Assembly: GCA_032622095.1 (NCBI GenBank) | Contig: CP136067.1 | Span: 134,729,990 to 134,793,989 of the forward strand | From: Siphonodentalium dalli | Taxonomy: Eukaryota > Mollusca > Scaphopoda > Gadilida > Siphonodentaliidae | DNA length: 64,000 bases | Reading direction: 5' to 3' | Position numbers and translations under genes: made by a program | Notes under the pieces: model-generated | What the model saw: the letters and a program-made list of their open reading frames with translations, nothing else | Database searches by the model: none | Told to the model about the DNA's origin: nothing | Shown here: in pieces, positions 1 to 31,948 of the stretch | Layout: each line of letters starts with the position of its first letter | Position numbering within the stretch: position 1 is the first letter of the stretch

Positions 1-76
1 TACATTTTCTCCATCATAACTCTACATCAAAGAGTCTATCGACTCCTTCGGGACCTACATAGACTCCTTCATTCAG
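1..76 (+). pseudogene. Dioxygenase exon (KES motif), cut by window edge, with in-frame TAA
   Basis: Read backward from the GTAATT donor at 77, phase 0 gives LYIKESIDSFGTYIDSFIQ, which joins in frame to TWPRE of the next exon. The KESIDSFG stretch fits the family's conserved KE(S/A)FDFG region. Codon 17-19 is TAA; the paralogous exon at 46169-46282 has GAA there. The acceptor is outside the window. Confidence 0.7.
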
Positions 77-690
77 GTAATTTTACTTATAATTGGGAAG
101 TGTTATCATTTTTGGTTCGTGCGAAGACCTCTTTCTATCGGGCGGGAAAAGAGACTTCAAAACGCGATTTCGTAATTCAACGCAATAGGCTGAATAGCCT
201 AACCTTCAGTCGAGTTCCGGGTCAAATACGACGCATAACGTAACACAAAACAAAACGCATTTGTTGACACGAGCACCATTTGAAGAGTTTATTATTACAT
301 AAAATGATCGTTATCGATTAATTATTGATTAATTATTGATATTTATTGTTGCATATTGGCTGCTATCAATATTTACACAAATGGTAGTAATTATTTCTTA
401 TAATTGCTCATTTGGTCAACTTTGACTATCGGAAAATGAAAATGAAAATATGCCGCTGAAAAAAATGTAATCGATATTAAAGTCTCATCCTTTCGGCCAC
501 ATGGAATTGGTTTTAATTACTTAAATGATTAATATAGTAATTTGCCTTTTATCTGTGATGAAATGAGAAATGGTAATTGTCTTGCTAACATTAAATTAAA
601 TTAAATAAATTAAGTAAAATACAGTGAAATTATTTTTTATTACATTTGTGCGCACGGTGGCAACCATCTGAGTGCATTCTAGTTCCCATT
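1..690 (+). repeat. Segmental duplication, copy 1 (exon plus intron of the dioxygenase gene)
   Basis: The sequence matches 46207-47425 almost base for base apart from small indels and a 497-bp MITE present only in the 46-kb copy. Similarity fades about 60 bp before the exon at 752. It may extend left of the window. Confidence 0.85.
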
Positions 691-3600
691 TGATTTTGAT
701 CAGAATTTAGGACAGCTGGACTGAAAACGTATTATTTTAAACTTTTCGCAGACTTGGCCGCGCGAAGCTGAGAAATTCGAGGAGACTTTCAGAGAATTCA
801 ACAAGGAAGCGACCAAACTAGCGTACCGTGTCTTTGATATTATCTCATTAAATTTTTGTCCACAGGTAAGATTTTAGTTACGTATAATTATCCTCTTGCA
901 TATAGTTATGTTCACCCTTTGTATGATATATTGTTCATCTAATATGAGGTAGGAGGGGCACGAGCATTGATAAGATTGTTTTAATCGCCGATATCCCCCA
1001 AAGTTATATATAGTCATCTCCACAATTCGTTCTAATGAGTTTTTGGCTTTCAAATTTCATAACCTCGATACATGCTGGCCGAATTAAATCACTTGATTAT
1101 CTTATATATTCTTTTCAATATGTATATCTGGACGGGAATCAGGGCATGCGTATTGTCAGTTACGGATACATGGAAGAAAGAATTAAAACTATAGTTATCA
1201 TTCTATTTAAGAGATACATATATTCTTTCAACATGAGGGACACTGAACCGTCAGAGGATATCATGTTAGATGACTCATGTATTATAACACAATTAAGTCT
1301 GTCCCATTCAAGATAGTTCCACAAAAAAAGATAAAACTTGTCGAGAGAGATGGAAATGTATATACATAGAAGGCCTGCTAAAATCGTGATCACAGTGTGC
1401 AGTCAAATAGAGTTTCTTCTGAGATAAAAGAAAACCACGTCCGTTAGACTCCTGATATCATGGAGATTATTAGGTATATAAGTTTGGTGGTAATCGGCAA
1501 CTAAAAAAATACTTAATTTAGTGCCCCATCTCTCACACAAACGCCACCAATCTGGCGTCTTTAAATCACAAGATTATATTTCTGGTATCATGGAGAAGAT
1601 TATGTATAAATTTGGTGGAAATCGGCGCTAAAAACAATGTTCTGCTTCTGACACCAACATCGTTACTTTATAAAATTTTAACCCGCACAATTATCTTCCT
1701 CATAAAAGGTTACCACTGTTATACCCCATTTGGTGCCATGTAGATGGTCGCTCGTGAATTTATTTATGAATAAGTCCAAACCTCGATGACTTCATCTATA
1801 TTGTCGAAACAGACTGCAAATGTGTACTTTGGTTGATAATAAGCCACAAGTACACTCCAACTGACGAAGATGTCATAGTAGGTGCTGTCTATATATCCCA
1901 CCGCGAAATACATCTTATTCCATCAACGATCCATACACACAACTTCAGTGTGAGTACCTTAGAATGGTAAGTACGCACAGCTACATTTTTCTTGCAGGCG
2001 ATTTTAACGCACAAACATCTTGCGATAACGATTACGGAGCATATACTGACGAATCAGAATGGGCCCAATTAGATGAACCCCGAGAAATTGAAATGGAAAC
2101 TGTATTAATTGCATGTGGATTTTCTGTCAGTAGAACTAAAAAAAGTTCACTAAGAGCCCAGTTTACTTCTAGATATATGTATAAATAATGATGTATTTAT
2201 ATTGAATGATAGGGTGGGTGCAGATATTGGGGTAGGCGATTACACATGCAGAGGATTATCAACTGTAGATTATGTTCTTTCGTCAATGAATGCAGCCCCC
2301 CTGATAGAAAATTTTGAAGTTCTGCCGTTTAGCTCTCTTTTCAGCGACGTATATTCGCCAATCGCTTTAAAAATTAAAATTACAATTACCCGTCTCAAAG
2401 AGCAGTCACATCTGAAGAAACAAATTCGGTCTGAATCCGTACAAAGTCTGTGGGATATTAATAAAGCTAATTGTTTTATTGATAAAATGAACCAGAACGA
2501 GCTTGAACATATCTCCAATAATGTAAACGAAATGGCAAGTGGTGTTGCGAATCAATATAGTATTAATCAAGCGATTGCAATTTTTTTTTAAGTATTAGTG
2601 GATTCAGTGCGAAAGACATTTGGAACCCGAAAGATATTATCTCATAACCCACCCCGAGTAAGGCGAGCAATCCGTGGTTCGATCGGCACTGTAGAGAGGC
2701 CAGCGCATCGCTTGATAATCTACACAAGCACTTCGAACATCTCAACAAAGGATGTGATACCCCTAATCAGTTACCTGATTTTGAGGTTTGTCATAGTGAA
2801 GATCTTAATACGAAAATTACAGAGGAAAAAATCCGTCTATTTATTAGTAAGTTGAAAAATAATAACCCTTCATCTGATGATGGCATTCGGAACGAATATT
2901 TAAGAGTTTCAGCCGCTAAAATGATGCCAATTTATGTTTGCCTGTTCAATTTAATATTCGATTCTGGTTGCATACCAGGTGATTGGTTGATCGGTAACAT
3001 TCACCCTATATACAAGAAAACAGGATCACGAGATTACCCCAATAATTACAGGGGAATAATAATATTCAGTTGCTTTGGCAAACTATTTACCTCCATATTA
3101 AATAACAGACTAAATCTCTTTATTGAATCGAGAAATATATTAAGCGATAACCAGACAGGATTTAGAAAAGGATACTCTACTCTTGATAATTTGTTCACGC
3201 TGATTGATCTGGAAAAAGCTTTTGATTCTGTTTGGAGGCAGGGACTTTGGTACAAGATGTCACTTGATCATGATGGTATCGGGGGTAAAATGAAAAGGGT
3301 TATTGTGAATATGTATGATTCTATCAAATCTAGAGTTGTTTTGAACGGTAAAATATCTGATGTGTTCATGTCAAATGTAGGATTTATGCGGATGATACGG
3401 TTCTAATGGCAGAATTCCCACATGTATTGCAATATTCACTTGATTTATTTGCTGACTATTGCGATATTTGGCATCTTCGGGTAAACATCTCAAAAATAAA
3501 GTTAGTCTATTTCGCCAAACGAAAGCCAAAACATTACCCAGCAATAAATTTCCTTGGAAACCAACTACAATAATTATATCGGTGCTTTTAACTACCTTGG

Positions 3601-6600
3601 TGTTCATTTCTGTAGTAGAACAGGTTCGTTCAACGCTATGTAACATGTAACAAAGCCACCAAAGCTATGTATGATTTGATTAAGATCGTAAAACGAAATA
3701 ACCTCTCTTTTAAATGGATTTGCATGTTTTTTGATCAAATGGTGGTACCAATACTTACATACGGCTGTGATATATGGGGGCTTGATGGTGATATATGTTA
3801 TATTGAACGAGTACATTTAAAATTTTGTAAGATTATTCTAAACCTCAAAAAGTCAACTCCAACATATATGGTTTATGGAGAAACAGGTAGATACCACATA
3901 AAAGTTACATTAAAAAAAACATAATGCTAAAATTATGGTTTTCACTTGTCACAAATAAACATGGCAAAATGTCAAAATCGCTCTACACATTGCTGTATAA
4001 TCATTACACAAACGGTATATTCTTTTCACCGGGTATTTATGCAGTTAAAGGAATAATTGATTGTTGCGGTGTGCCTCATGTTTGACCGAATCAATATTCA
4101 CTTATCAACACGATATGCATTCTCAAAGATGTCACACGAATTTTAAGAGATCAGTTTATACAAGGGTGGCAAATCGATATATCACTTTCCAGAAAGGGCA
4201 TGTTTTATTCCTTTATTAAGAACGTATTCACTTTGTCTAGATTTAGGACCAGAAACATAAACTGCCAGTAGAATCGGGAAGTTGGACTAACGTTCCGAGA
4301 TGTATGTACTTTGTGCAATCTGAATGCATCCGGCGATAAAATACACTACCTGATTGATTACCCAATCTTCTCCGATATGATGGAATCATTATTTCTTGTC
4401 TTTTCGAAAAGTACATACAGTCTTGGTAAATTGAAAATGCTTTTAAGGAGCACACGACCATCTGTTTTAAAGTAAATGATCAAAGAGTTTCAAACTTTCG
4501 TAGCTACCTGTTCTCCATGTTAAATCAGGTATCTTCCACCTCACAGGGCGGCAGCCTGTAAACTGCCATAACACATTTTCTATTCTTATTTGTCAAACCC
4601 CATGCACGTCACGTCCTGATGACACTCTCGAGTAAGTCATTATTACCAAACCCCCATACCTCACAGAAAAAGCAAAAATGGGTGTCACGTATGTCTCAAA
4701 TAGGTCGAGATGGATAAACAATATTCCGAGACTTCCATATAATCGCGTACATGGCCCGCGTGGCCTTATCCATTAATACCCGTTGGGTTGAATGAGCCAG
4801 ATTTGCAGAAACTTATACCCATGTAGTTAAACTGTTTGACAATATCAATCTTACTCCCTTTTAATATGAATTTCGTTTTCTTTGGGAGGCTAGTTTTCGA
4901 CAGGTTTAGAATTATAGTCTTCTCAGTATTAACTGTGAACTTCCACCTGTCGCAATATTTTTCAAATTCATTTAATTGTTTCTCTAGTGCTTTTTGTGTC
5001 TCAGCCATGATTACTGTATCATTACCAAGTGTCATTCTGGAGAGCATCTGTGCAGATAGGATTTTACTTAGCCGAGAATAAGTTCCTTCCTCATACCAAA
5101 ACCAAGAGAGACAAGCGCAAAGAGAAACAATACTGTGGTTGTGGTGAGAATTAATTTATGACTGGAGTCATAAGTTGGTTTTCATTGTAATGGCCATGTT
5201 GTTTGTCTGGTTCATGGGGTCCATGGGTGTGTTTTGCACTGGTCCATGGTTCGAGTTCTTTCATTTACTGCATGTGTACTGTTGAGTGTAGAATGGTGGT
5301 CCCGTGAATGTCCGGATTTGGTGTACCACTTTAACTGGATGATATATTAGTATTCCATCCTACCCTGTGCTATGGAATGACTGGGGAAGAATATCATAAC
5401 GATGAACCATTTATAAGAGCCAATGTCTGAGTGTTATGGTCCAGATCAAGGCGGTAACTCTATTTGCTCCAGAAAAACACAAACTAGTATACAAATATAC
5501 TTAATCGATAAATTTTGTGACCAGTTCAAAAACATTAATTATTTCACAGTAAATTACTCTAAAATAATGCGGATTGACACTCTATTCGAGATTTCAAGGC
5601 CAGTTAATTTGTAGAAGGACAAAAAGTAAGGAAACCTTATATAACACCACGAATGGCACAGTATAATACAAACAAACCACACAAGATATTCTTAATTGCT
5701 GAATTCTCAATAAATCGGCTGCTTCATAATTTATAGTGATTAATTAACCTGGGAACAAGCGTGTCATTTTCATTATCACGCAAAGTATGTACTTATATAT
5801 GCTTATTTATATATACATGTATCTTGCTTTTTATTTGTATTTTGAATTTATGATCGTTTGTCTCACTACTCATCACATTCTTCCAACAAACATATTTGTA
5901 ACGGACACTGTCTCAATGGTCTCGCACAATATACGCTGTTACCTGCATGTAAACCGCAATTTCCAATTTAGTCCGCCATGACATCAAATCTAGCGCAATA
6001 TAGGCCGGTGATAAGGCTTTTTAATTTACGTACCGGTATGTGCAATGTGGATAAATTATCCAAAACTCGGCGTGGTAACACTTCAAACATTACATTATCT
6101 AAATTCGGACACAAGCAAAAATTACTTGTTCGTGCAGTTCTAATAAGTATGCTTCTGGTTATTTTGAGCAATGCCGTGCATAAAAATCCAGGTCCATTAT
6201 AACGTCCGAAAACTAAGACACAAATTGCCGAAACTAACTAAGCATACTGATGAATATGATATTGTTTGTTTTTCAGAAACCCATCTAAATGTTGGTTTCC
6301 CAAGCGAAAAAGATTCTGCTTCCTAATTATCAAGGCCAATCATATTGGATAGAAACGAACGAGGAGACGGCCTGGCAATTTATATTGCTGATGGTCTCGT
6401 ATTTAAACACATCCCTCAACTCGATTTTGATAATGAAATACTTTGGTTCGAAATTGGTTCGAAACAATATTTGCTATGTGTGACATATCGATCTGAGAAG
6501 GAATGTATAGAATCATACTGGGAAGACCTGAAATCCTCTGTCGAAAGCGCTCTGGCGATAAATCCTTCCCTTGTTAGTGTCGGCCACTTAAATTGTAACC

Positions 6601-9600
6601 TTTCGAAACAATCAGGACCATTGCACAATATAAAAAGTAGATGGGCTCTAACAAACGCTATCACCAACCCAACTCGTGTGACTGGAAGCTCCTCCATCTT
6701 GATCGACCCAATCCTGATAAGTGATACCATATCATTCGTTAACGCGTCAACTATTGATCTGGGGCACTCAGACCATTATGCGATCACCATGGAACTACTA
6801 ACACCCAATCGTAAATCAGAGATATGCATTCGTCAGGTATGGAATTATACCAAAGGTGATTACCTGAGTACGAATGCAGAGATCCATGCAATAAATTGGA
6901 CAGATGTTTTATCTAAAAGAGGCACAAACACCAATGTTAATCAAATGGTAACAATTTTCGCAGACATGTTCCTTAATGTAGCAAAAAAGCATATACCTTT
7001 CCAAACAATTACAATTACGACAAATGATAAACCATGGTTTGATAGCTCTATTGGAGTAAGTATAAGAAAAAGAGATCGTTTGAGAAATAAAGCTTTAAAA
7101 TCCAATACAAAAACGCACTGGGACAAGTATAAACAAATTCGAAATAAGATAAACAACATGAAAAAATTTGCAAAATAGAATTATATGTTAAATCTGGATG
7201 AAATTTTGAAACTCAACACAGGTCCAAAGCAATTATGGCATGTCGTGAAACAGCTGCTTAACAATTTTCTAATTAGAGTGAAATTCCAACTCTCGAGTAT
7301 GAGAATTCAGTTTATGATTATGATGAAGAAAGGGCTAAGCTATTGAACAAAATGTTTAAAATGAATAACACCATAGGTAGTTCGGAATCTCAAACCCACA
7401 ATTCGCAAATAGAACATCATCAAATATAAGCTCGATAGAAACAACAGAAAATGAAATCTCAACTATTCTCAAATCTTTATCCACAAATAGACCAATGGTC
7501 CGGTGGATATCAGTAACAACATGTTAATGGAAAATCACAGCTCAGTATGCAAACCACTCAAAATAATGTTTAATAAATCGCTTACGAGCTGTTGTTTTCC
7601 GGACACATGGAAACGTGCTGATGTCATTCCATTGTTCAAAAACGATCCAAATAATTACAGACCCATCTCACTTCTCAGTTGTGTTTGGGAAAGTTCTCGA
7701 CAGATTCATTCATAATAATTTTTTACACATTTGCAATCCAGATATTTCTTATATTCCCACCAGTCTGGGTTTATCCCCGGTCATGGAGCGGAACTTCAAC
7801 TGGTAGAAGTTATTCAGAGTCCCGAGCTAGACTATTTGCCGACGATATATGTCTCACGAATGAAAACTCTCATCTGCAAACTATAGAATCATCGATAAAT
7901 CAGTGAATGGGCTGATAAGTGGATTGTCAAATTCAACGTGCCAAAACTAAAGAATTGCTGTTTACAAGTATAGAAAATACTATAAAACCGAATATAGTTT
8001 CCAATGGAGCTACCCATGAGTATACGTCACATACATATGGGTATTGATATCTCAGAAGACCTATCATGGAATACTGATATCGAAAATGTATGTACTAAAG
8101 CCTATGCTAGACTTGACCAAATGAGAAAACTGAAATATCTTCTCAACCGTCATGCAGACTCACGAAATATTATATTTATCTCACGTTCGTCCATTAATGG
8201 AGTATGCTAGTTGTGTGTGGATTGGAGAACCTGACTATCTATTAAAACAACTAGATGATATACATGTCGAAGCGGCGCGTATAGTTACAAGTTGTACAAA
8301 GTCATGATCGGTTACTCACTGAACTCGGATGGGGGAAGCTGGAACGTAGGCGATGTGTTAAACGAATGAGTATATTTTACAACATTGCAAACGGAAAAGC
8401 CCCCGCCCACTTGACTCAGCGTTTTCTATCAAAAGTTAAGGACAAATGTGATTACGAACTGCGATATGCATCGAATTTAAATCGTCCCACTTCTAATAGC
8501 AAAAGAACAGATTCAACTTTCTTCCACACAATCATGCGTCATGGATTGGAACAAATTGGATAAAAAAAAACATTCCACTTGATATGTTCAAAAAAGCACC
8601 AGTAACTAAGCCATTAAAACCACCAACATATTTTTTAATGGTAAACGGTTATCAAACATCCTGTATTGTAAACTAAGGTGAGAATGCAATAATTTGCCAG
8701 AAGATAAACTTGAAAATCATATAGCAATCTATGCTACATGTAGGTATGGACGTTCTGTAGAAAATGCTTTCCATTATTGTTTTTTCAATGCGACCTACAC
8801 TTTGAAGAAAGAATTACACTTCGCAATAATCTTCTGCGTTTCAATATACATTCAGTTAAGACATAACTATTAGGGGATCCCGAACTTAAAACAGTTAGAA
8901 AATGAAGATATATTTAAAGCTGTACAAAATTATTTCCGACAAAGTGCTATTAAGACGCCCGCCCCAAGATACAACTTGTAAAATGTTATGAACGCGCACT
9001 GAGATACAAATATCACATTTAAAACAGCTACTCGATAATCTTATTGGAATTATGAAGAATTGGGTGGAGTGGTGAGACCATAAATTAGACTTCAAATAAT
9101 ATATAATGATATATGTATACACTTGTAAATATGTTTTTCCTATTGTGTTGACAACCCAAATTATTATATATCAGTGTTTATAACGGCAATTGGGAGAGGG
9201 GTTATGCACAAGTGGATCGCACTTGCCCCCCAATCCCATTGCCAATTTGTATTGGTAATAAATATGTCTAAACCAACAACACTGCCACAAAAACTCACAT
9301 TTTTCACGAGCGCTTTATGCAAAGAGAATTGTCTTTGCGGATCGGCCCCATTGGCCACTAGAGGCGTTGTAACCGGGAAAGTGACTACAAGACTGACGCA
9401 TGCCGATGATACGCTGACACTCGTATGCACGTAGATTTCCGGATATCCGTTTAGTGTTATACGAATTAAGTTTTTATTGAGACCTCTCACGGCGAAACAA
9501 TACGATACGCACCAATGCTTTGTCGTAATCCTATTGGTGTGACAAACTTTCTCTCTGGTTTTGACATGAGTATACTTTAGCTTGATTAACATATTGTTAT

Positions 9601-12600
9601 ATCAGCTACTTTCATTATATTATCACTAATGAAACAGATTAATCTGATCTTGGAATATAAATATCGTATTGGTACAATACCGGGATGTTTCAGGTTTATC
9701 CCGGATTTGGTATGACGGCACCTTAGTTTGTTTTCTCGTTGAAGGATCGCAACATGATGAGGAATTACCACAAAGCATTAGGGACACCTTCACATGAGCA
9801 ATGTGGGTTAACCATACGGACAAACTGGTACCCCAAGATTGACGGCAAAGATATCGATGGTGAGTATATAGGCCTTTACATGTATCTGTGTATATTTACT
9901 CGATGGTGAGTATATAGGCCTTTACATGTATCTATGTATATTCACATAACCTGTGTGTTATACTAAATAATGTTCGGTGATTGGTTTACTGGCAATTGTG
10001 CTATGTGTTTTATATCCCAATACAATACACCATATAACATATCCGGCTTCACAAATTGTTTACATATGACTAAAAGCGGTAAGTATAATAACTGGGCGTG
10101 CACTCTAAATCTCGTTGGGTAAAATGTTACTCAACACAATGGTGCATATAGATTCACACGAACGTTCGGTAATTTTACCCAATGTTGGGCAATGTTTTTA
10201 CTCAACGCAGGGTAACAAATATTAGTTTCCCTTCTGCGTTGGGCGATTTTTTGTATCCGTAAATTAATATTGGGTAAATTGTTACGCTGCGTTGACCAAA
10301 AACATTGCCCAACATTGGGTAAAATTTACCTAACGTTCGCATGGTGCTATATGTACCATTGTGTTGGGTAACATTTACCTAACGTTCGCGCTGTGCTATA
10401 TGTACCATTGTGTTGGGTAACATTTACCTAACGTTCGCGTGGTGCTAAATGTACCATTGTGTTGGGTAAAATTTTACCCAACGCGATTTAGAGTGTGTGT
10501 TTTAAGTGAGCGGCCATAAACTAATCAATCGATAAATCACACGTAGAATATTGGGCCAAATTACACGGTATAATGCATGGTATACTATCCAAACTATAGC
10601 CAGATTCAGGAAAACAAAATAAGTTGAGTTTAGTTTGTACAAAAATTAATAAGAAGCTACATAAATATAAAAAATGAATATATTACGAGTGTGTTTTATT
10701 GATGGGTGTGTCGTTGTAGCCATTGTAACACATTTCAATAGACACAATCAATTGTAAAGTGGTTGCTATGTTATTAAAGTAAATGATGGACCAGATTCGA
10801 AAGCATGTTGGTGCAATAAACCCTAGAGTTATCCTTCCTACCACGTACGAGAGCCGAACTGGAAATTATAAAATGTGCAACAAAAAGTGGAAAAATAACA
10901 TTAAAATGGCGATGCGATTCCCGTTGAATATATAGAAGGTTCGTGGTATATATTATAAAAAGGGTACAAGAGCGGCACGGTTAAATGTACCGTCTTTCTG
11001 TCGTCCAGACACAAGTATATTGAATGGAATTTAAATAATAAAACTAGTTTAAACGACAACGTGAAATGGAATAACATTTTGGTGAAAACAATCTGAAACA
11101 AATACACGGTGTGTGACGTGTGTGGCGGTGATGCATGGTAGTATATATGGTCTCTTATCACTTTCACGACGGGAGCTGCGCTGGTGCAAGATTAAAGACC
11201 CTGTGCCAGTATGTTTTGGTAGCATGAGGAAAATGAGAAACAATCATATTTTGCACCTTATATTCACCCCGCAACCACCGAATCATGAAACTAGAATAAC
11301 TATATAGGCTATATTAATTGTGGAAATTCCCATACCTCGAGCAATGAGAGTCCATGCTATTGTAGTGTCTACAAGCTGGTATTTGTCTTATAAACACAGT
11401 TAAATAGTATGGTTAACTATAATGATTACCTTAAATCATGTGACTTTGAAGCCTAATCAGCAAGAAAACGAAGAATCAGCTTTGTGGTCACTTTCTGTTT
11501 CCGTGTTTCGGCTCGAGACTGTTAGACCTGCCTTGTCCGTCACCGACTGACAAAAGCAGCAATTTTTCGCGCATTCATGGTGCGTTCTGCGGCGAATGTT
11601 ATCTAATCCTCGACATTCAAGCTTTCGTTTTTCAGTGTAACATCTCGAATCACTCTCCCAAATAAATCTCCACGTTGTTGAGTGTTTTGCTTCAAGCTCT
11701 CGTTTTACAGTGTAACAACTCGAATCACTCTCCGAAATAAATCTCCACGTTGTTGAGTGTTTTGCTTATCCTACGTTCTTTAAATATTGTATAAACCACG
11801 TATATTGATAAATGTACATTCTTATTCATTAAACAGGCCCCGTTGAAACAGGCGATCGATGCAGTGAACACTCGGACTATCTCACAGTGACATTGTTGTT
11901 CCAAGATGAAGTCGGTGGGTTGGAGGTGAGAAAATAGTCCCCGTGGTAGAATATAATGTTTATCGACATCCAATTGGTCATGCTCAAATTGAGTCAGCAA
12001 TTCACTGGACATTATACAAATATAACAGTGCGTGTGCTTCTCAAGCATACCATGCGCGTTGTGATCTCCAAAAAATGTCGAGTGTCTCCATCATGTTGAG
12101 ATCAAGTCTATGTAACTTCTGGCGAAAATTGTCATCAATAGAACCGGCTCCTTGACCACATTGTGATAGTTACAGTTATGCCCTGTGCCAATGCATTCTC
12201 TTATATATGCGAGTCGACCATAGGTCGCCTCGCATATATAAGAGAATGCATTGGCCTAAAAAATAAATCCTTTTTTAACACTTTTTACCATTTTTTCTTA
12301 CATTCTTTAACAATTTTATAATTTTTAATGTGTTAAGCCAATGCATTCTCTTATATATGCGAGGCGACCTATGGTCGACTCGCATATATAAGAGAATGCA
12401 TTGGCACAGGGCCCTCTTGTTGGGTAAAGGGTTATGGCGTAATTTGTCATCAATAGACACCTTTAGCATAATGAACGATGATAGATGATTATTACGAATA
12501 GCTATTTTGTAGTCAGAGTAGAGATTCGTGGCATGATCTAGCAACAAAGGTAACTTAACGACGCCAAATGAGTTCGTTTGTTTTTAAATTATGTAAACAT

Positions 12601-14424
12601 TGTGATAAAATATATTTTTCACATTAAATTGCCGCTTTCAATTGACAACTCTTGTGGCAGAACAAATATTATGTATTTTATGGAATGTCACAATAATTAT
12701 TGTGACTTGTTATAACATTTATATGTTTGTTTAGAAACACCGCTATAAAAAGGTATAGGCAGGATGTTTCGACGTATAATAAAGCAGTATCAGCTGTCCC
12801 TATACACATTTCAATAGCTGCTTTACGTCGAAGAACACTTGGACTATATAATAGAATTGTTTATTAGCAAAGTCAACATCGAAATTCCAACATGCATGCT
12901 ACAACGTATATATATCATACATACAAACAATACATAACATGTACATGTACATCAATAAATTATTCCACCATATTATATGGTATTAATATGGTATTAATAA
13001 TAGAGGCAAATACTGCTAATACATTCAGGAATATGTTTTCTTAAATGGTATAACTCATATAATATTTATATTATATATAATAGAATATAATATAATATAA
13101 TACTTGCGTCATGGTAACTTTTTAAACGCTAATTTTATACTTATATTTAGCAGTGACAGCATTCTGTATAATTTATTTATGTTGGGATTTTCCCAGTAAT
13201 ACTTCAGGATATATGTTTCTCGCAGGTCGTTAAGTTATGTACACAAAATAACAAAATGGTATTCCATCACAGACATTTTCGTCAAATAACGGACATTTCG
13301 TGTCTTTACATGTACATTTATTCCATTTGCATACTATTATGCATACGTATTGCAGGTCCAATCATTAGAAAGTGAATATAAATTCGTGGATCCCATTCCC
13401 GAGACGATTGTTGTGAATGTGGGGGATCTGATGCAGAGGTGGACGTCCGATAAACTAATAGCTGCTGTAAGTGTTTATAATAATCACATCGAAAGGTGCA
13501 TGTACGCGTATATGTATAGTGCACAAATCACAACATCTTTCTTTTATTAGCGCCCATCGCTCCTTTGAGTAGAACTTTCCAACTGTCGGAAATTTCCAGC
13601 TTAACACACACTGTGGTGAGTTTGACAGGAAATATAAGCAACAAACACACTGTATGCATTATCTAGCTTCTGAACCCAACTAGGGTATGCGCTCATCATG
13701 TTACTATCTGAAAGCATGAATGCCTGCGAGAAAATAACAATTTAGTTTCCCGGCGGCCATTTGCAGAACTATTTTTGGAGGAAAAGTCACCTTAAAACAC
13801 CATAATGTCTGGAAAGATGAATCAGTATTGAGTGTTTCTGTCTGTAAGATTATTACAAACGTGGTTGATTAATATTTATGTTGTTCTATGTTGTTTTGTT
13901 CCTTCGCTCAACAACAAAAATAGTTCTGAAATGGCCACCAAATATAAAATATGCAATGAAAAATGCTTTAAAGAAAGAAAAATTCATGGTGAATAGACAC
14001 ATTGAAATATAGTGTGACTAAAATGACCCCGATTTTGAGAATGTGTGAGAAATATGACAGATGGTGCAGCTGGATGATGTTATATTTATTGTAACATCTG
14101 ACTTATGAGGCTTGTCTTTGGTATAGAATATATTGGTATATTTGGTATTTTCCCCAGTGGTTTGTGAGTGGGATGTCACATCATGGCCGCACTTATGATT
14201 CTACGTACTGTTCATCAATATTCGTGATATCTTTTACTTCGCAGAAACATCGAGTTACTTCAGCCGACCAGGAGAAGAGGAAGAAGACGCGACAGTCCAT
14301 TGCTTTCTTTTGTGGCCCGGATCTTGATACCGAGTTGTCTTGCCTTGATGGATCACAAAAATATTCGCCTATAACCGCCAGAAAATATCTGATGCAAAAA
14401 TTCAAGGAAACGCTCAAATACTAG
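1..14424 (+). CDS. 2-oxoglutarate/Fe(II) dioxygenase, isopenicillin-N-synthase-like, multi-exon, 5' end outside window
   Basis: Enzymes of this superfamily couple oxidation of a small substrate to decarboxylation of 2-oxoglutarate, using Fe(II) held by HxD...H. Exons read 1-76, 752-865, 9727-9859, 11837-11925, 13356-13466, 14245-14424, all bounded by AG/GT. Intron phases are 0, 0, 1, 0, 0 and agree across every junction. In order they encode KESIDSFG, TWPREAEKFEETFREF, LTIRTNWYPKIDG, EHSDYLTVTLLFQDEVGGL, PETIVVNVGDLMQRWTSDK, then HRV and RQSIAFF before the stop at 14422-14424. This is the order of the family's C-terminal two thirds, with the iron ligands (HSD, later H) and the 2OG-binding RxS visible. 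The substrate cannot be told. Exon 1-76 has an in-frame TAA at 17-19 where the 46-kb copy has GAA, so the locus may be a pseudogene or may use another exon. The 866-9726 intron is packed with LINEs. Family call firm; functional state uncertain. Confidence 0.85.
752..865 (+). CDS. Dioxygenase exon (TWPRE...)
   Basis: It lies between the acceptor TTTTCGCAG and the donor GTAAG, 114 nt, phase 0 at both ends. It encodes TWPREAEKFEETFREF and then KLAYRVFDIISLNF, the WP-x-F and helical region found before the first core strand in this family. Confidence 0.8.
866..1734 (+). other. Intron sequence, nothing recognised
   Basis: This follows the GTAAG donor of the dioxygenase exon. It is AT-rich, with only short chance ORFs on either strand. 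It precedes the first LINE. Confidence 0.5.
1735..4530 (+). mobile_element. Decayed APE-type LINE (CR1/Jockey-like group), sense, in the dioxygenase intron
   Basis: Broken pieces of one ORF2-type protein occur in order. Endonuclease: VGAVYI near 1880, AGDFNAQ near 1995, STVDYVLSS near 2260. Reverse transcriptase: NNYRGIII near 3045, QTGFRKGYSTLDN near 3155, DLEKAFDSVW near 3205, YADDTVLMAE near 3383 in another frame. Thumb and C-terminus: VPILTYGCDIWGLDG near 3750. The endonuclease SDH is replaced by SDV. The catalytic ADD lies past a frameshift from the palm. Further stops and frame changes follow to about 4530, so it cannot be active. Clade assignment is by style only. Confidence 0.85.
4600..5060 (-). 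mobile_element. LINE reverse-transcriptase fragment, antisense
   Basis: On the minus strand, 5047-4766 encodes GNDTVIMAETQKALEKQLNE and then FEKYCDRWKFTVNTEKT and FNYMGISFCKSGSFNP. These are the YADD-strand (degenerate), palm and thumb of the same LINE family as 1735-4530. A frame change lets ATRAMYAI and TPIFAFSVRYGGL follow down to about 4600. It is truncated at both ends. Confidence 0.8.
5150..5338. mobile_element. Old degenerate copy of the AGGGGTACTG TTAA-MITE family
   Basis: Blocks such as GACTGGAGTCATAA, TTTTGCACTGGTCCATGG and TGTACTGTTGAGTGTAGAA match, in order, the complete element at 62831-63177. Both ends are lost. Confidence 0.6.
5339..5940. other. Intron sequence, nothing recognised
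   Basis: AT-rich DNA between the MITE relic and the next LINE. I see no motif, repeat or coding stretch that can be supported. Confidence 0.4.
5950..9110 (+). mobile_element. Near full-length but decayed CR1/Jockey-like LINE, sense
   Basis: Read in order on + strand: an N-terminal hydrophobic stretch ending AVHKNPGP (6130-6200), the typical start of many marine-invertebrate LINE ORF2s; endonuclease start DIVCFSETHL (near 6260); endonuclease core 6345-7178 with GHLNCNL (degenerate GDFN) and SDHYAI; RT with NNYRPISLLS (7650) and FADDICLTNENSHL (7845); C-terminal VHPLMEYASCVWIGEP (8195), EAARIVT, and a late Cys/His patch CRYGRSVENAFHY (8745). At least six frame changes or stops are seen, and the RT core between 7715 and 7840 is shortened. 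An AT-rich 3' UTR follows to about 9110. Confidence 0.85.
9111..9726. other. End of long intron; unassigned 142-codon minus ORF
   Basis: 9592-9164 on the minus strand stays open for 142 codons, and an 86-codon + ORF overlaps it. Neither product resembles a known family, and neither has splice or start context. The DNA also contains a short imperfect inverted repeat near 9185-9243. I treat it as intron. Confidence 0.3.
9727..9859 (+). CDS. Dioxygenase exon (LTIRTNWYP)
   Basis: The acceptor is CACCTTAG and the donor GTGAG; length 133 nt, phase 0 to 1. It encodes FVFSLKDRNMM, NYHKALGTPSHEQ and LTIRTNWYPKIDG, matching the family's LR-x-x-YYPPI strand just before the HxD segment. The donor lies in a 46-bp tandem duplication, so a second donor-like copy occurs at about 9906; only the first keeps the frame. 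Confidence 0.8.
9855..9946 (+). repeat. 46-bp tandem duplication spanning a splice donor
   Basis: Two adjacent 46-bp units (9855-9900 and 9901-9946) with few mismatches. Each contains CGATGGTGAG, the exon end plus GT donor of the dioxygenase exon. Confidence 0.85.
10101..10495. mobile_element. Foldback MITE with CACTCTAAATC ends
   Basis: The ends are exact inverses (CACTCTAAATC / GATTTAGAGTG), flanked by a 2-bp TG duplication. CACT-type ends with short TSDs recall CACTA/EnSpm-like elements, but no transposase is present. Three 49-bp tandem units lie inside (starting 10324, 10373, 10422), and GTTGGGTAA-type blocks recur in both orientations so the whole can fold back. Confidence 0.75.
10500..11617. 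other. Intron sequence, nothing recognised
   Basis: AT-rich DNA between the foldback MITE and the intronic minisatellite. Only short ORFs occur, with no motif. Confidence 0.4.
11618..11768 (-). repeat. 75-bp intronic minisatellite, two copies
   Basis: Two head-to-tail copies of a 75-bp unit containing AAATCTCCACGTTGTTGAG, just upstream of the HxD exon. The duplicated locus at 63.7-64.0 kb (opposite strand) has at least four copies. Confidence 0.8.
11837..11925 (+). CDS. Dioxygenase exon with HxD iron-binding motif
   Basis: The exon runs from acceptor ATTAAACAG to donor GTGAG, 89 nt, phase 1 to 0, joining neighbours without a frame break. It encodes PVETGDRCS followed by EHSDYLTVTLLFQDEVGGL. 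HSD supplies two Fe(II) ligands, and TLLFQDEVGGL is the family's signature strand. A near-identical copy lies at 63553-63641 on the minus strand. Confidence 0.85.
11990..12545. repeat. Dispersed repeat hosting a palindromic MITE
   Basis: 11990-12141 and 12436-12480 together match, in reverse complement, the unbroken stretch 44645-44785, for example CTTCTCAAGCAT and GAGTGTCTCCATCA. The 12.1-12.4 kb element splits this repeat. Confidence 0.65.
12142..12435. mobile_element. TTAA-type MITE with twin 69-bp palindromes (left end lost)
   Basis: Two 69-bp near-perfect palindromes, 12187-12255 and 12337-12405, are reverse complements of each other. Each has 27-nt arms (GCCAATGCATTCTC...) and a small CGACC-ATA-GGTCG centre. 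The right end TTGGGTAAAGGGTTA matches the complete copy at 36338-36706. A 21-bp near-duplicate (12121-12141 and 12436-12456, two mismatches) flanks this copy. Confidence 0.75.
12546..13355 (+). other. Intron sequence
   Basis: AT-rich intron up to the acceptor at 13354-13355. It contains an AT-rich simple tract near 13060-13105. No gene is seen. Confidence 0.5.
13356..13466 (+). CDS. Dioxygenase exon (VVNVGDLMQRWT)
   Basis: The acceptor is TACGTATTGCAG and the donor GTAAGT; 111 nt, phase 0 at both ends. It encodes VQSLESEYKFVDPI and PETIVVNVGDLMQRWTSDK, the (V/I)VN(V/I)GD(L/M)(L/M)(Q/E)xWT strand seen in nearly all plant and animal members of this family. Confidence 0.9.
13741..13946. mobile_element. 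Short foldback element in last dioxygenase intron
   Basis: About 35-bp inverted arms, left GGCGGCCATTTGCAGAACTA and right TAGTTCTGAAATGGCCACC, enclose a non-coding loop. No clear target duplication was resolved. Confidence 0.6.
14245..14424 (+). CDS. Dioxygenase terminal exon with distal His and RxS
   Basis: The acceptor is TTTACTTCGCAG; the exon reads in phase 0 to TAG at 14422-14424. It encodes KHRVTS (third iron ligand), RQSIAFFCGPD (2-oxoglutarate-binding Arg and Ser) and KYSPITARKYLMQKF, the usual C-terminus. An AATAAA occurs near 14788, inside a MITE that sits in the 3' flank. Confidence 0.9.
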   Translation, partial: KHRVTSADQEKRKKTRQSIAFFCGPDLDTELSCLDGSQKYSPITARKYLMQKFKETLKY

Positions 14425-14465
14425 GAAGTAGTGATGCAGATTATGCTGAGAATCTCTACTCTGTC

Positions 14466-14890
14466 TAAAGTTGCCATTACACGATTAAGCTTGCTTAATT
14501 CAGCTCCAAATGGTAACCACAGGGGGTTATGCTGGATGTTCACATTACACCATTCAGCAAACTTTTGAAAGCACTGTTTTATCAGGAAATCTTTCATGTG
14601 CAGATGTCCATCATAATTAACTGGTCTGTGGTTATATTTACTAACTCGACTCCAATATTGTGGACTACACATGTGTTTTTTATCAGATATCACGAGGAAA
14701 TCTGTTATTTAACTGCTACTTGACATTAATGGGGGATCCGTGCTGAATAGAAAAACGGCCCGGTTCCTTTCCATACAGCTTGCTCAATGGGTAATAAAAA
14801 GTGCTGAGCTCTATGAAATGACATGGTATTGCACAACTCGCATCTTGAGCTTGCTGAATTAAACAAGCTTAATCGTGTAATGGCACCTTA
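14466..14890. mobile_element. MITE with about 40-bp TIRs, probable TTAA target
   Basis: The left arm GCCATTACACGATTAAGCTT recurs inverted at the right end (AAGCTTAATCGTGTAATGGC). The right end is followed by TTAA; the left has the degenerate CTAA. It lies in the 3' flank of the dioxygenase gene and supplies an AATAAA. Confidence 0.7.
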
Positions 14891-14892
14891 AC

Positions 14893-15746
14893 GCCCGTAG
14901 ATATCATATTCCACCTGTACAAAACCTGGGAACTTTTTTAAGTTTTTACAGGGAACTATACAGTCGAACAATTACTAGTGTAAACGGGTTGATATAGAAA
15001 TACACACAGAAAGAAAGAGGTATTCGTTCGTGTGAGCAAAAATCGTGTCCGTTATAAGTCACGGTCAACACCGAGGCATTGCGACAGGCAAATCTGATTT
15101 TATTAATTGTTACTCGGGCTTGGCGAATGTGCTTAATCTTTCTTTGTCATTTCAACCCATGTATTTCACACTGTGTAATCGAGAACATGTGTACTGGTGC
15201 GTAAGGTGACAAAGTACTTAAAGTTAAGTTTTTTGTTTAATAATATTTATTCCCACATATAAATTACAATATAATATTTGGTAATTCATCTTATCATCGG
15301 TGGACATAATATAAAATGTCGTGATAAAGCGAGCAATATTATGCTGTATAATTCGAGTCGTCTCCCGTCGTGGAGTTGTCGGAGACAGGTAATGAATTGG
15401 TATATTCATGTGCTTTATGTTTGCACCATGTCTAATATATTATATAATGGGTGTCATATGAGCAATACAGACAGACATATATACAACATTTTTGTGTCAC
15501 CTGTCGTGTCGGTCATCAGCTGTTTTAATCTATCCATACATTGGATATTTCCTTAATGTAATTATTATTATTTTAATATGGAAGTATATTGTTATTCAAA
15601 TTTTTATTTTTATATTTCATTATTTATAGTTCTTAACATATTTTGTAACCCTTATATCTCAGAAAGTTTAAAAGATAAAGCATTGAAATTTGGTAGGTAT
15701 ATGCAACTTGTGAAGTGACAACTGAATGAAACATTTAGGTTTATGT
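14893..15746. other. Intergenic, nothing recognised
   Basis: AT-rich, short ORFs only. Its right end and the DNA after 25341 appear to be one dispersed repeat split by the LTR element. Confidence 0.4.
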
Positions 15747-16194
15747 TGTAGAGTAATTATCCCTGATACATACTAAACATATCTATCTTAACCGATGAGG
15801 GGAGACAGGAATATAATCGAACTATAAGTGACCCCAACCAATTACCAAGGTCATACTCGAAGAGGCCGCGACCTTTGGGTTATGCAAGTCTAACCACAAA
15901 GGATTGATAGTCTTAGGTAATAATTCCCAGTTCACCCATGGGTCAGTACAGACAAAGAGATACACTAATGACTGCTACCAGTCATTAGCGATATATAAAC
16001 CAGACATTAATCTACTCTTCAATCAGTTTCGGCTCTTCAGACTAATTGGCAGATGTCAACATCCACCCGCTAAATTAATAAGCGGCGTTCCTGTCTTTCC
16101 ATCCATCCAAGATGATTCATAACATTGCTGTTGACTATACATTGATATTAGATGTGAATAAATGATATACAAGAACTGACTTCATTCTTCCACA
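15747..16194 (+). repeat. 5' LTR of Ty3/Gypsy element
   Basis: Begins TGTAGAGTAATTATC and ends TTCTTCCACA. It is matched by 24895-25341. Confidence 0.93.
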
Positions 16195-16764
16195 TAGATG
16201 AAATGGTCCCGTTAAGCAGTTCTGCGTCTCACTACTACACAACTTGAAGTCTCGGCCACTAAACGATCAAAACCAAAGAAAAATACAGAAGATAGCAGCC
16301 AACCCAAAAAGAAAAAACTTTATAAAATTGCTACAGAAGATTGCTGCCAAAACAAAGAAAAATACAGAAGATAGCAGCCAAACCAAAGAGAAAAAACTTT
16401 ATAAAATTGCTACAGAACATTGCTGCCAAAACAAAGAAAATACAGAAGATAGAAGCAAAAATAAAGACAACTTTATAAATTGCTTACGAAGATCACAGCC
16501 AGAAGAAGATAACATAGACGAAAAAGAGAAGAAAAGACGAAAGAACCAAAGACAAGAACAAAACAAACAATTTGAACTCGGCAGTTGTGACAGTCAGTTA
16601 TTCATAGGATTTGGTGAGTTAAACTTTTTTATTTTTGCCAGATGTGCGTTTTCACACCTTGTTAGAGGCTTGATTATTAACACCCAATTCCACCCTAAAA
16701 TTTTCGCGTGGTATGGCCCTTGCCCCCAAACAATTTTCAAATCAAACACATTTAATTAACTTTC

Positions 16765-17957
16765 ATGGAACCACCGCCACCCGAATCCGTAGAATATTCT
16801 AATCAAGATAGTTTATTTAATCGAACTTTCAATATGGAACGAGAATGCCACCTACACGCGGCCAGTAATTCAAACATGCAAGACAAAAATATACCAAATC
16901 CCTCCTTTCAAATGCCGAGCGCACAAGACACACAGAATACCCTCATATCTCAATTAACGCGAGAAATAGGTCAATTTAACATGACAATGCGTAAGACTTC
17001 TGCCGCCACCCATTCACAGGCCACAGTATCTGCCATTATAGGTATGAACGCAATGGTTACATCATTTGATGGCAAACCATCAGAATTTTCAAATTGGATG
17101 CACGAAATTGAGAAATATTCTTCGACACTTGGGGCAGAGGATGAAACAATAATTAAAATAGCCGCTCATCTGTTTCCGAATTCGTGCAACGATACATCAA
17201 TGACAATACGGTTAACGGCACAATAACGGTCACATGGCCTGATTTGAAAGCGCAGTTGCGATCCCGTTTCAGCGCGATAAGTGACGCACCACAGGCTCTG
17301 GCCATGTTGCGAGCATTAAAACAAACACACCAGGAAACACTACCTATGTTTGCAGAGAGAATTAGATCACTCGCAAACACTGCCTTTATTGATGAAATAA
17401 ATACACAGGCGGTACAAACACAATTGGTAACATTTTTTGCGGATGGCATACGCGATGACCATATCAAATCCACTTTAATTAAAGATGACCCAACGTCGCT
17501 CGACCGTGCCACCGAGATCGCAATGAAACAAATGAACATTAAACAGAGGTTCAAACTTCGCTATGGTGATAGAACATTGAGGTCAAATGAACAACACCAA
17601 ATACACGACTCCTTCCCACAACCCATGGAGGTTGACCATTTTAGGCGACGTCCCATACTATGGAAACCGCGCAATAATATATCTAATAGCTCTGCAACTA
17701 ACAAACCAGTGCACCGTGCAAATCATCACTCAAACCCACCATTCCGAATGCCACCAAGATTTCAAAACACTAACTTTAATAGACAAAACAATGATATCCG
17801 CCAGGATCGAGTAAACAATATAGACTACAACTCAACCCGGCCAAACTTCCCAAATCAAAGGAAACTCCAGTTCTGCACACTATGTAAGATGAACAACCAC
17901 GATATACGAAATTGCCGAAGACGGATCGCCAATAACAAACAATATTTAAACATGTAA
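16765..17957 (+). other. gag region of the young Ty3/Gypsy element
   Basis: Capsid/nucleocapsid-type coding stretch, ending with a zinc knuckle CTLCKMNNHDIRNC near 17875. It sits immediately before pol. Part of the fossil element described above. Confidence 0.8.
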
Positions 17958-17959
17958 GA

Positions 17960-20900
17960 ATGTCTTTGAAGAAGCCGCAAGGACATTCTAAAAATCATAA
18001 TCGTCATCATCATAATACATCACATCAGAGCGCGAGATATCAAACCAAAACCGTCTTCAAGACACCCTCAAAATTTACGACCATAAATAGATTTTCGCCT
18101 AATTACCCAAAGCAAAATAGTTATGCAACTAAACCAGCGACTGGTACCCTAAACACCAGAGCAGCACGTGTTACTATAAAAGAACAGAGACATCGTTCAG
18201 ACCAGGCCAATAAATTGAAACCTAATACATCTTATCATGCTGATACGAGCATGAATAAACACGTGCATTCTCCAATTATAAATAGAAATTCCGCTGGTCA
18301 CGTTAGAACAGATATGAATAAACGATTACATAAGATCGTTCCCAAACAAAAGGACATTAATAGTGAAGTAAACACTAAAACTCGAAACCAACGACAAGCT
18401 AATCAAATTGCAACGGTTTACCAAAATAATAATAATAATGAGCCGAGTAAAAACTGTCAAAGTATAAATAACCAGTCGGAACAGATGCAATTGTATACAT
18501 TACCTAAACTCAAATACCATGCAGAGATTGCACAAGGACTGCAACAGCAAACGCCTTGTTCAACAATTATTAAAATTGGTAACCAACGCATTAGGGCATT
18601 ACTTGACTCTGGGGCAAGTACAAGTTGCTTAAAATATGACGTATATCGCTCCCTTCCAAATAAGCCCCCGTTAATAAAAGAACAAATAATTCTGACCTCA
18701 GCAACAGGCCAAAATATGAAAGTATACGGCAGTATACATTTGCCCTTCAAAATTGGATCAATGTCATTAGTACATAAATTCTTTATATTACCCAACCTAG
18801 CAAGATCAGCGATTTTTGGTCGCGATTTTTTAACAGACAAACGTGTAAGACTCTATTTCGATTTGAATGCATTTAGAGTAGGCAACAAAACATTCCCCAT
18901 GTTACAGGATTTACATATAGCATCATTGCTACGTTCGCGGCAAGATATCAAATTACCACCCCATTCATGTGCATTGGTGAACACAAAAATAATTGGTACA
19001 CCAGACATGTATGAGACACCATATCTTGGAGTAAGTCACGCCGATATCGGCATATTTAAGGATGAACCTAATGTGTCCATTATGGACGGGATAGTTTCTG
19101 CATCAAAACGAGATATACCGGTCATGATCATGAATAATTCAGACTCGTATATATCTATATTTAAAGGTAATATAGTTGCGAAAACACATGGCCTAAGTTC
19201 AGACCAGATCTGTCAAACAAAGGCTAAGATACCCACCACAAATAAAATGAATGATTCTCAAGAAGTATTTAGTATAGAAAATCAAACAAATATATCTAAG
19301 GCTGGCCAGAAACCTTTCAAATTGGACGATATATGTGCCCCCGACCACCACAAAATTGAACTACTTGGACTGGTCTCCCAATATCAAGATGTGTTTACAA
19401 ACGATCCAAATAAGGTAGGATTTTGCGATAAAATAGTCATGCGTGTTGATACCAAACCAGATGCAGAACCTATCTTTTGTCGTGCGTATCCTACTCCATT
19501 ACATAGACGCGAACACATGGAAAAGGCACTTCAAAAATTATTAGATGCTGGTATTATAAAGAAAACTACAAACGCGAGTTGGTCATTCCCTGCCTTATTG
19601 ATCCGTAAGGGAATCGTAGATCCTAATGGAATTCAAAATTATAGACTATGTATAGACCTGAGAAAGCTAAATAAAATCACCGTCCCATTACGATGGTACC
19701 TCCGCTCTTTTACCGAAGTTTCCAGCCGCCTCCAAAAATCCAAAGTTTTTTCCACAATCGACATTAGCCAAGCTTATCATGTTATCGGTGTTCTCAAAGA
19801 ACATCAAGAAAAGTTAACTATGAGCACAGATTTCGGATTGTTTTATTTCACAAGGGCCCCATTTGGCTATTGCAACTCGAGCGCGACGTTTTTGACATTA
19901 ATCCATAAAGCATTGGAAGGGTTAAGTTTTGTTGACAACTTCGTCGACGATTTAATTTGTCACAGCGAAACGGAGGCCCTCCATAAACAGCACCTCAAAA
20001 TAGTATTCGAACGACTCAGAGAGTATGGATTAGTAGCACGATTAACAAAGTCCCAATTTTATATGAAAGAAGTAAAATTTTTAGGGCATATCGTATCACA
20101 AAATGGAACGCGCCCAGATCCCGCCAAAGTTAAAGCCATACAAGATGTGCCGGCCCCAACATCAGTTAAAGAAGTCCATAGAGTATTAGGGATTTTTAAT
20201 TTTTATCGGAACTATTGTAAAGATTTCTCCGACACTGCTGCATCATTAATTAAATTAACTGCTCGTTACGCAAAATTTGCATGGTCCAAAGAATGTCAAA
20301 ATGCTTTTGATACACTAAAACAAAATTTGCTTAAAGTACCTACTCTGGCCTACCCTGATAGGAACAGGAAAATGATCTTATATTGCGATGCATCAATGCA
20401 TTCAGTGGGGGGATCATTAGTCCAGCCATACCCAGAAAACAAATTAGAAACTGATATCAAAACCCCGGAATTTCCAATTTGCTTTGTTAGCAAAAAGTTG
20501 AATCACTCTCAACGAAATTACAGTACCACAGAGCGCGAAGCACTCGCCATATATGTATGTCTAAAGAAACTCAATTTCTATCTAGAGGGATCAGACGTAG
20601 AAATACGAACAGATCATTTACCCATAGTTTCTATGTTTCAAAATACTCAGATGGCCAATAAACGTATTCAAAAATGGTTTATTGAAATTTCCGCATACAA
20701 TCCAAAAATTACCTATATACAAGGGTCCGAAAACATTGCCGCTGACTTTTGTTCTCGGGTGGACCCGACAAACCAACAGAGTATGTCAGAGTGTTCAGTG
20801 GAGAGCGAAGAGAAAACGCCATATGACATAGCGATCAATGACGGATCACTAAACATATTAGATTCACAGAAAATAAAAAATTACGTCAAGACAATAGGTA

Positions 20901-22504
20901 AACAAAAAGTGCATACGTTGCCCGACACTATATTAATTTCCGAAAATGAACAACTAAATGTACCTACCAATATCGAAGAAATGCAAAAAGAGGACCATAT
21001 TATCGCAGACATAATTCGCAAATTAAAATCCGATAAACCACCCGAAAAGATAACAAAGCAATATATATCGAAAGACGGAATTCTATACTATATGTCTGTA
21101 TTTAATGAGCAAGCATCGCAACGCATTTATGTCCCGGAAAAGCTGACTAAGCAGATAATTTCTGAATATCATATTGTCGGTCATTATGGATCCCAACGAA
21201 TGTACCATACCATACGTTTGCGATATTATTGGCCACGAATGTTCCCAATGATAGTCAGTTTCGCCAACAATTGCCACATTTGTAAACAAAGAAATCAAAA
21301 CACTGCCCGTATTCCAAATCAAATGACGGATATACCGAGCCGACCAGGGGAAATGATCGCGATAGATTTAATGGGAAAATTTAACCCACCCACAGCCAGC
21401 GGCAATTCCTACATTCTAACAGTCATAGATTTATTCAGTTTACACAAAATGGCATATGCGCTTCCCACAAAACACGCAGAAGTGGTCGCTGAAAGACTTA
21501 TGACTCAGTATTTCACCATATTTGGTTATCCCGCTAGTCTGGTATCAGATAATGGCAGTGACGTATGCAGTGAGGTATTCAAAATAATATCTAACTACTA
21601 TGTTATTCAGCATCGCAAGACCTCGTTCTATGCGCCTTTCAGCAACGGATCAAGTGAACGATCTCATCGCGACTACAATGGAATATTAGCCAAATTAACT
21701 GAGGGAAATCCAACATCATGGGACCTATTTCTCAATTTCGCATCAGAAGCCATGAATTTTCATGTCTCAGCAACGACTCAATTTTCTCCATATTTTTTAA
21801 CTTTCTGCAGACACCCCCAAATAAATATTGACAAGATACTGACACCGCGACAGAAATACACGGGTGAATGCCTCATTCAACAGTTACTAGAGAAGCAGCA
21901 CTTCGCATTTCAATTAGTTAAACAAAATATGAAACAAGTCAAGACGAAACGAAACGAAAACAGTAAAGGTAAAATACCGAAATTTCCCATAGGTTCCCAG
22001 GTCTATGTTAAGAATCACAGACAAACCCATAAACTAGGTATGAAATATGATCCATTTTGGGTGATACTTAAACAAACAGGACCAGTTTCGTGTGTAATTC
22101 GTAATCAAATTACAGGCAGTTTATCTAAAAGTCATGCCAAACATTTAAAATTAGCAACGACTAAATGGCATACACCACAATTACAGGAGAACCAGAAAGT
22201 TCGAAAAAGCAGATTTGCATTCCCACATAATTCATCAACACAAAGCTCAGATGCTGACATATCGAGTAATAGTAACAATTCGGACACCGAAAATGAGAAC
22301 AATGAGACAGCCCCTTTAACACAATTAATACGACAAAATCGCGTCATCCGGGACGGATCGGATTCAAATGAAACAGTTCCCTTACCAGAGATGGCACATA
22401 AATTAATAGCATCAAAACGCGATCATGAAAAACAATCATTTTCATCAACCGAACCATACAACCCTTATGATATGCTAACTCAAAACGATGAAGCAAAAAT
22501 GTAA
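17960..22504 (+). other. pol region of the young Ty3/Gypsy element
   Basis: A single 1514-codon frame. Domains in order: aspartic protease (LLDSGAS, about residue 215), reverse transcriptase (about 510-700), RNase H (about 800-920), and integrase with HHCC zinc finger and catalytic core (about 1070-1300). This order defines Ty3/Gypsy rather than Copia. Part of the fossil element. Confidence 0.92.
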
Positions 22505-24894: not shown

Positions 24895-25341
24895 TGTAGA
24901 GTAATGATCCCTGATACATACTAAACATATCTATCTTAACCGATGGGGGAGACAGGAATATAATCGAACTATAAGTGACCCCAACCAATTACCAAGGTCA
25001 TACTCGAAGAGGCCGCGACCTATGGGTTATGCAAGTCTAACCACAAAGGATTGATAGTCTTAGGTAATAATTCCCAGTTCACCCATGGGTCAGTACAGAC
25101 AAAGAGATACACTAATGACTGCTACCAGTCATTAGCGATATATAAACCAGACATTAATCTACTCTTCAATCAGTTTCGGCTCTTCAGACTAATTGGCAGA
25201 TGTCAACATCCACCCGCTAAATTAATAAGCGGCGTTCCTGTCTTTCCATCCATCCAAGATGATTCATAACATTGCTGTTGACTATACATTGATATTAGAT
25301 GTGAATAAATGATATACAAGAACTGACTTCATTCTTCCACA
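24895..25341 (+). repeat. 3' LTR of Ty3/Gypsy element
   Basis: Near-identical to 15747-16194. It is followed by ATGT, the target duplication. Confidence 0.93.
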
Positions 25342-30426: not shown

Positions 30427-31948
30427 CCAATCTGTAAGACCCGAAACTTCTTCTTAGCACATCGGCATCTTTTAATCTTTTTATTTGATTCTCCACTCCT
30501 GCTTGCAGATTGAAAGGAATTCTCCTGTGCTTTTGTGCCACTGGCTTGACAGATGTGTCGATGTGGAGTGTCACTTCTGCAGTTTTGTGCTTGCTAATGC
30601 CATTGAATATGTCACTAAATTTATCCACTAAAGACGCGGTCTCCATCATGTTAACTTGTAATGTTTCTGGAGGAGTATTTATTTTGTTCTCCTCATTTGT
30701 AACAGAAAGGACATCACGATTACACACAGTCTCGTTTTCGGCAAACACATCTGGTTTAATCTTCATTATTTCTAATTGCGAAGCCGTCTTATATCCCATA
30801 ATTGGTGTGACACTGTGCTGCACATCTATTATAACTAACTCCGCTGTTTGACATGAGCCAGTATGTGTTATGTTCGTTGTGTACTTTCCTTCAATTGGAA
30901 TTTGGTTATCTGGGAAACCTTTAATTGTATAATTGCATGGTGACAGTTTAGCATTTGGTAGAACTCTCTTGAATGTATTTATATCCATCAAGTTCACATC
31001 TGACCCTGTGTCAATAAGAAATTCGACATACTGATTATTTATTTCGACTTTTGTTATGGGTCTTGTTTCGTTTATTTCAAAACATTGTAGAATTCTGGAA
31101 TGTTGTGTGCTTTCAGACTTGCGGTTGTTAAAACTGGAACTAACATCGCCTCGATTTTCTACACATGCTACTCGCTTGCGGAAACAGTATTTAGCAAAAT
31201 GATGAAGTCCTCGACAGTTTCGACAAACTATGTTATGAGCCGGACAATTTGATTGGCCGCCAGAATGAGGCCATTTATTTCCACAACCTTTACACATATA
31301 ACCACTTGAACCATAACCATGTGTTACTGATGACGCATTCTCTGGTCTATACTGCTGTCGTTGAATTTCCATAACACTGTTTTCTTGGGTTCCTTTCATC
31401 ACATGAGCTTGTTCAACTGCTCTTTCTTTTTCTCTTAAATTAGTAAGAGTCGTGGTAAGGTCCCATTTTCCCACAAATGACCGTGTGCAGAATGAATCAC
31501 CACAGCTGAGAAGCACCTGTAAAATCATCTCAGTATCTTCTTGATCCTTATATTCGCAGAACGCTGCTGCTTGTTTGAGACGAAACAAGAATTTTTCCAA
31601 GGATTCTCCAGACTCTCGTTTCAGCTGTCTAAATTTATACCGTTCGAATACGTTATTTAACTTTGGAACCAAGTAACCATTTAGAGCATCCTTCGCCTGT
31701 TTATACGTATCTCATGTGTTAGGGATTGTCTGGAATATTCTATGCACCTCCGATCCTGCATGATTCAGAAGAAATCTTAGTTGTTTGTCTTCTTTTATTC
31801 CACTAGCCCCAACCATTATTTCAAATTCACTCAACCGCTGTTGCCATCTGGGTCCTATATTCAGAGAATCAGTCTCTATCACAAAGTTGCCAGGGCTCAT
31901 TGTTGTCGGCATCATAACTGCCATCTTGATTATATACTTAATGTTCAA
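30427..31948 (-). other. gag and protease region of the older Ty3/Gypsy element
   Basis: Minus-strand coding stretch with two Cys/His knuckles (about 31300-31180) and an aspartic protease motif (FLIDTGSDVNLMD, about 31020-30980). Part of the fossil element. Confidence 0.82.

Follow-up and report, generated by a model that had tools for sequence, protein, structure and literature searches.

Among described enzymes, the nearest solved structure to the protein analysed here is thymine-7-hydroxylase of Neurospora crassa (PDB 5c3p; E about 2e-21), for which residue numbering and roles are taken throughout from PMC4787775. This hydroxylase is in turn the closest structural homologue of HxnY from Aspergillus nidulans, in which the base-binding residues are kept and the substrate itself is unsettled (PMC9304392), so that HxnY, likened to our protein by its published description alone, illustrates how such residues can be kept without fixing function. 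Relatives are common among bacteria, and the best sequence matches were cyanobacterial (Nostoc) and other bacterial 2-oxoglutarate/iron-dependent oxygenases (38-40% identity over about 195 residues). Full-length bacterial oxygenases carry PF14226 and PF03171 in the domain order expected for the present gene's family, and differ from it in being intact and free of introns. Isopenicillin N synthase (IPNS) has the fold superfamily and the HxD...H...RxS layout in common with our protein, and animal IPNS has been described from springtails and Plectus (Roelofs 2013, as cited in PMC10531068). A literature search returned no work on this family of oxygenase genes in the group to which the host probably belongs.

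The window (the whole 64-kb stretch of DNA that was analysed) is retroelement-rich eukaryotic DNA, and it almost certainly holds the 3′ two thirds of a real eukaryotic 2-oxoglutarate (2OG) oxygenase gene, spread over five complete exons (A to E) on the plus strand. When all frames of positions 1-16000 were read, the exon-bearing open stretches measured just 34 to 109 codons, in agreement with the preliminary description of a gene without a long ORF. Exon A (752-865; 114 nt, phase 0/0, encoding TWPREAEKFEETFREFNKEATKLAYRVFDIISLNFCPQ) is followed by exon B (9745-9859; 115 nt, phase 0/1), exon C (11837-11925; 89 nt, phase 1/0, with an EHSDY motif), exon D (13356-13466; 111 nt, phase 0/0, encoding the core strand VVNVGDLMQRWTSD) and exon E (14245-14424; 180 nt, including the stop codon TAG at 14422-14424). 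Their borders follow the GT-AG rule, the intervening introns measure 8,879, 1,977, 1,430 and 778 nt, and splicing with junction phases 0, 1, 0 and 0 yields an open frame of 606 nt that runs into the TAG. The compatible phases that had been proposed were thus confirmed for A to E, and of the six exons of 89-180 nt originally counted, five are complete and within that range, while the sixth is cut by the window edge with 76 nt visible. Although the gene had been called hidden in tiny exons, and the exons are indeed short, short exons within long repeat-filled introns are an ordinary eukaryotic gene layout. With its introns filled by transposable elements, such a gene is missed by ORF scans and plain to profile methods. 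At exon B the 5′ splice site occurs twice owing to a 46-bp tandem duplication (9854-9942), and use of its distal copy would bring in an in-frame stop.

The joined A-E peptide matched Pfam 2OG-FeII_Oxy (PF03171) at E 4.1e-18, its 66 bits lying above the curated cut-off of 23, and returned no match in NCBIfam. Bacterial relatives were collected from plasmids and genomes (in genome contigs by an alignment-based scan, a single-peptide scan having given no match), and a family profile built from 84 of them was run on the window's open stretches in all six frames. It matched exons E, D, C and A, each independently (E 1.7e-18, 1.1e-11, 1.7e-8 and 0.0024, respectively); the single further match was a minus-strand copy of exon C (E 1.4e-8), and the best match in a reversed-window control had an E of 22. 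Exon B fits by its phase, position and TIRxxxYP motif, and is weak by itself, with 25 of 1000 shuffles equalling its score. Of the two profiles against which the preliminary description had proposed to search the peptide, 2OG-FeII_Oxy was therefore matched, whereas DIOX_N (PF14226) matched neither the visible protein nor, in a profile search, any exon of the 64-kb window, because the DIOX_N exons lie outside it; the visible part amounts to about two thirds of the protein. Relatives of the oxygenase are also encoded by many IMG/VR contigs (272 out of 311 that matched a pattern), with at most ~42% identity over the catalytic core.

The HxD motif, distal His and RxS attributed to this gene from its exon peptides were all recovered. 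Exon C supplies the iron ligands His (11869-11871) and Asp (11875-11877) within HSD, and exon E supplies the distal iron ligand His (14248-14250, in KHRV) as well as the Arg (14290-14292) and Ser (14296-14298) of RxS (RQS). The equivalents of the 2OG-binding Arg190 and Tyr194 fall in exon B (9817-9819 and 9829-9831); these two were located from the R-x-x-x-Y motif together with the alignment of bacterial relatives, as the printed thymine-7-hydroxylase match begins downstream of both. Together with the PF03171 match, these residues bear out the assignment as a 2OG/Fe(II) dioxygenase. Over the aligned stretch, 49 of 117 residues (42%) are identical to the Neurospora enzyme, and His214, Asp216, His271, Arg286 and Ser288 are kept, as are Tyr217 and Phe292, which stack on the base, in addition to the Arg190/Tyr194 pair. 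In contrast, Asn294 is replaced by Gly, the Asn87 position falls outside the window, and Glu122, which aids substrate binding in thymine-7-hydroxylase (PMC4787775), has an equivalent only by way of the uncertain exon e1 (see below). Because the Tyr217 and Phe292 columns are near-invariant in the bacterial relatives (Y in 79 and F in all 84, respectively), neither residue identifies the substrate. By homology, a working copy would adopt a double-stranded beta helix fold, holding Fe(II) by His-Asp-His and 2OG by the Arg and Ser of RxS plus a further Arg and Tyr, and would presumably oxidise a small substrate by means of O2 and 2OG, with release of succinate and CO2.

Its sequence marks the oxygenase as an ordinary representative of a family already known, the thymine-7-hydroxylase / IPNS-like enzymes. 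The label "isopenicillin-N-synthase-like" holds for the superfamily, but not at the level of sequence, where IPNS was barely detectable, with an E of 0.058 against about 2e-21 for thymine-7-hydroxylase; identity with IPNS was accordingly rejected, and the gene is no candidate for penicillin synthesis.

The protein has nevertheless diverged: at the 34 near-invariant columns (each conserved in at least 90% of the bacterial relatives) it departs in 9, compared with 0 to 7 among the 84 relatives, yet every catalytic residue is kept. In a quick tree its branch was the longest (2.46, versus 1.04 for the fungal thymine-7-hydroxylase), and its placement is unsure owing to that length. This divergence could stem from a relaxation of constraint, from a new function or simply from eukaryotic-bacterial distance.

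Upstream of exon A, positions 1-76 (probable exon e1) are cut by the left edge of the window and end in phase 0 at a good donor (CAG|GTAATT, 76/77). In the frame demanded by exon A this segment reads TFSPS*LYIKESIDSFGTYIDSFIQ, with a TAA stop at 17-19; exon A is open in phase 0 alone, with stops in its other two frames, so that the TAA is in frame if the donor at 76/77 is used. A near-copy of the segment on the plus strand (alignment of 1-482 with 46207-46707) has GAA in place of the TAA, and there the donor is preceded by 114 nt of open frame (46169-46282) and, ahead of these, by a pyrimidine-rich acceptor. The peptide of this near-copy resembles the family motif GYxxxRERLDPxxPxDLKE[AST]FN in the right place, a score reached by 8 of 5000 shuffles and ranking second among 1649 stretches of the window. 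A minus-strand fragment (32890-33060) scored at least as high as e1; upon inspection it was unrelated and was judged to be a chance match. Compared with the bacterial relatives, e1 was not significant by plain profile or free local alignment, and was borderline in an anchored alignment, the motif-specific score being the one significant result. On the strength of its position, phase and splice sites and of the weak motif match, we consider it quite likely that 1-76 is an exon of the gene.

The near-copy of e1 is one of two orphan duplicates in the window. The intron that follows it runs to 47420, is split by an insertion (46707-47203) and stops ~68 nt short of the expected start of exon A. The other duplicate is a near-copy of exon C on the minus strand (63553-63641, encoding GPVETADRCSEHSDYLTLTLLFQDEVGGLE), recovered by DNA matches as well as by the family profile (E 1.4e-8), and it belongs to a block (11616-11987, including exon C) that is duplicated in inverted orientation at 63488-63862. 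Collinear scraps of the intron after exon C follow on the same minus strand at 44604-44771 and 42744-42770, without D or E, and no further A, B, D or E turned up in the 64-kb window by DNA matches or the family profile. Between copies, the exons differ at 4 of 76 and 4 of 89 positions (8/165) and non-coding DNA at 24 of 399, 16 of 206 and 8 of 131 (48/736). Exon differences are hence no rarer than non-coding ones (Fisher p 0.48, with small numbers and little power), and five of the eight alter the protein or create the stop; small as the numbers are, this pattern resembles that of unconstrained fragments.

The best explanation, to which we assign a probability of roughly 0.6, is a thymine-7-hydroxylase / IPNS-like gene of which this copy is a recent pseudogene or null allele. 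Because of the stop in e1 and the scrap duplicates nearby, the copy is probably broken: translation would end at the TAA at 17-19, ahead of the whole catalytic domain, and the locus would be a cluster of duplicated and rearranged fragments holding that recent pseudogene or null allele. The intact gene implied by the preliminary description is not supported, given this stop and the orphan duplicates of two exons. We counted in favour of a broken copy the TAA where the near-copy has GAA, the orphan e1 and C, the exon differences that are no rarer than non-coding ones, the departures at 9 of 34 columns and the longest branch, and against it the open A-E frame, the good splice sites and an active site as intact as in a working gene. 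The TAA itself may be a sequence error or confined to a single allele. A tentative alternative, to which we give distinctly less credence, is that the gene is intact and expressed as a working 2OG oxygenase, 1-76 being no exon or being skipped, and an exon outside the window joining at 752. The 606-nt open frame with all catalytic residues, the weak similarity of the e1 peptide to the family and the fact that skipping e1 (114 nt, phase 0/0) keeps the frame would suit this explanation. However, the phase of e1 is right, its donor is good, as is the acceptor seen in the copy, and its motif match is the best placed; moreover, its skipping would drop the DLKEAFN-like segment, including the equivalent of Glu122, to which substrate binding is ascribed in thymine-7-hydroxylase (PMC4787775). 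It is rather improbable that a working, fast-diverging oxygenase of the thymine-7-hydroxylase kind has changed its substrate and replaced the broken exon by an upstream one outside the window. An intact gene would add one further uncharacterised eukaryotic enzyme to the thymine-7-hydroxylase / IPNS-like oxygenases, whereas a broken one would be a routine pseudogene within a repeat-rich region.

The two orphans, e1 at 46 kb and C at 63.6 kb on the other strand, could also be read as parts of one or more working paralogues reaching past the window, since both are open with splice sites and the inverted copy passes the right edge of the window. This is very unlikely, as the plus-strand copy lacks an exon A in the following 16 kb and the minus-strand copy lacks D and E across 63 kb downstream. 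That short open stretches without any relation have come together by chance to mimic an exon set, with no gene at all, is a negligible prospect: while exon B and e1, each taken alone, score near chance level, A, C, D and E are independently far above it, with order, strand and phase all right, and the PF03171 match (E 4.1e-18) and the per-exon profile matches refute such an assembly. The lesson of the probable pseudogene is that reading a gene exon by exon must include checks for stops and duplicates.

The surroundings of the gene contain several repeats and mobile elements. Just 3′ of the last exon lies a young, apparently full-length Gypsy LTR retrotransposon (15747-25341), with LTRs at 15747-16194 and 24895-25341 that are 99.3% identical, TG...CA ends, ATGT on each flank and a pol ORF of 1522 aa comprising protease, RT, RNase H and integrase. 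A second Gypsy-type element (27909-31711, minus strand) has RT, RNase H, integrase and protease matches, and LINE elements are present in the window as well. Introns and retroelements establish a eukaryotic source and no more than that, although an animal host would fit the introns together with the Gypsy and LINE elements. The C-D intron carries a palindromic fold-back (MITE-like) element at 12134-12434, which is absent from the inverted paralogous scrap at 44.6 kb and has other copies at 36434-36709 and 39737-39815. Tandem repeats occur at 43107-44137 and 58574-60669, as a 174-bp satellite array and as a GC-rich array in which higher-order units are nested.
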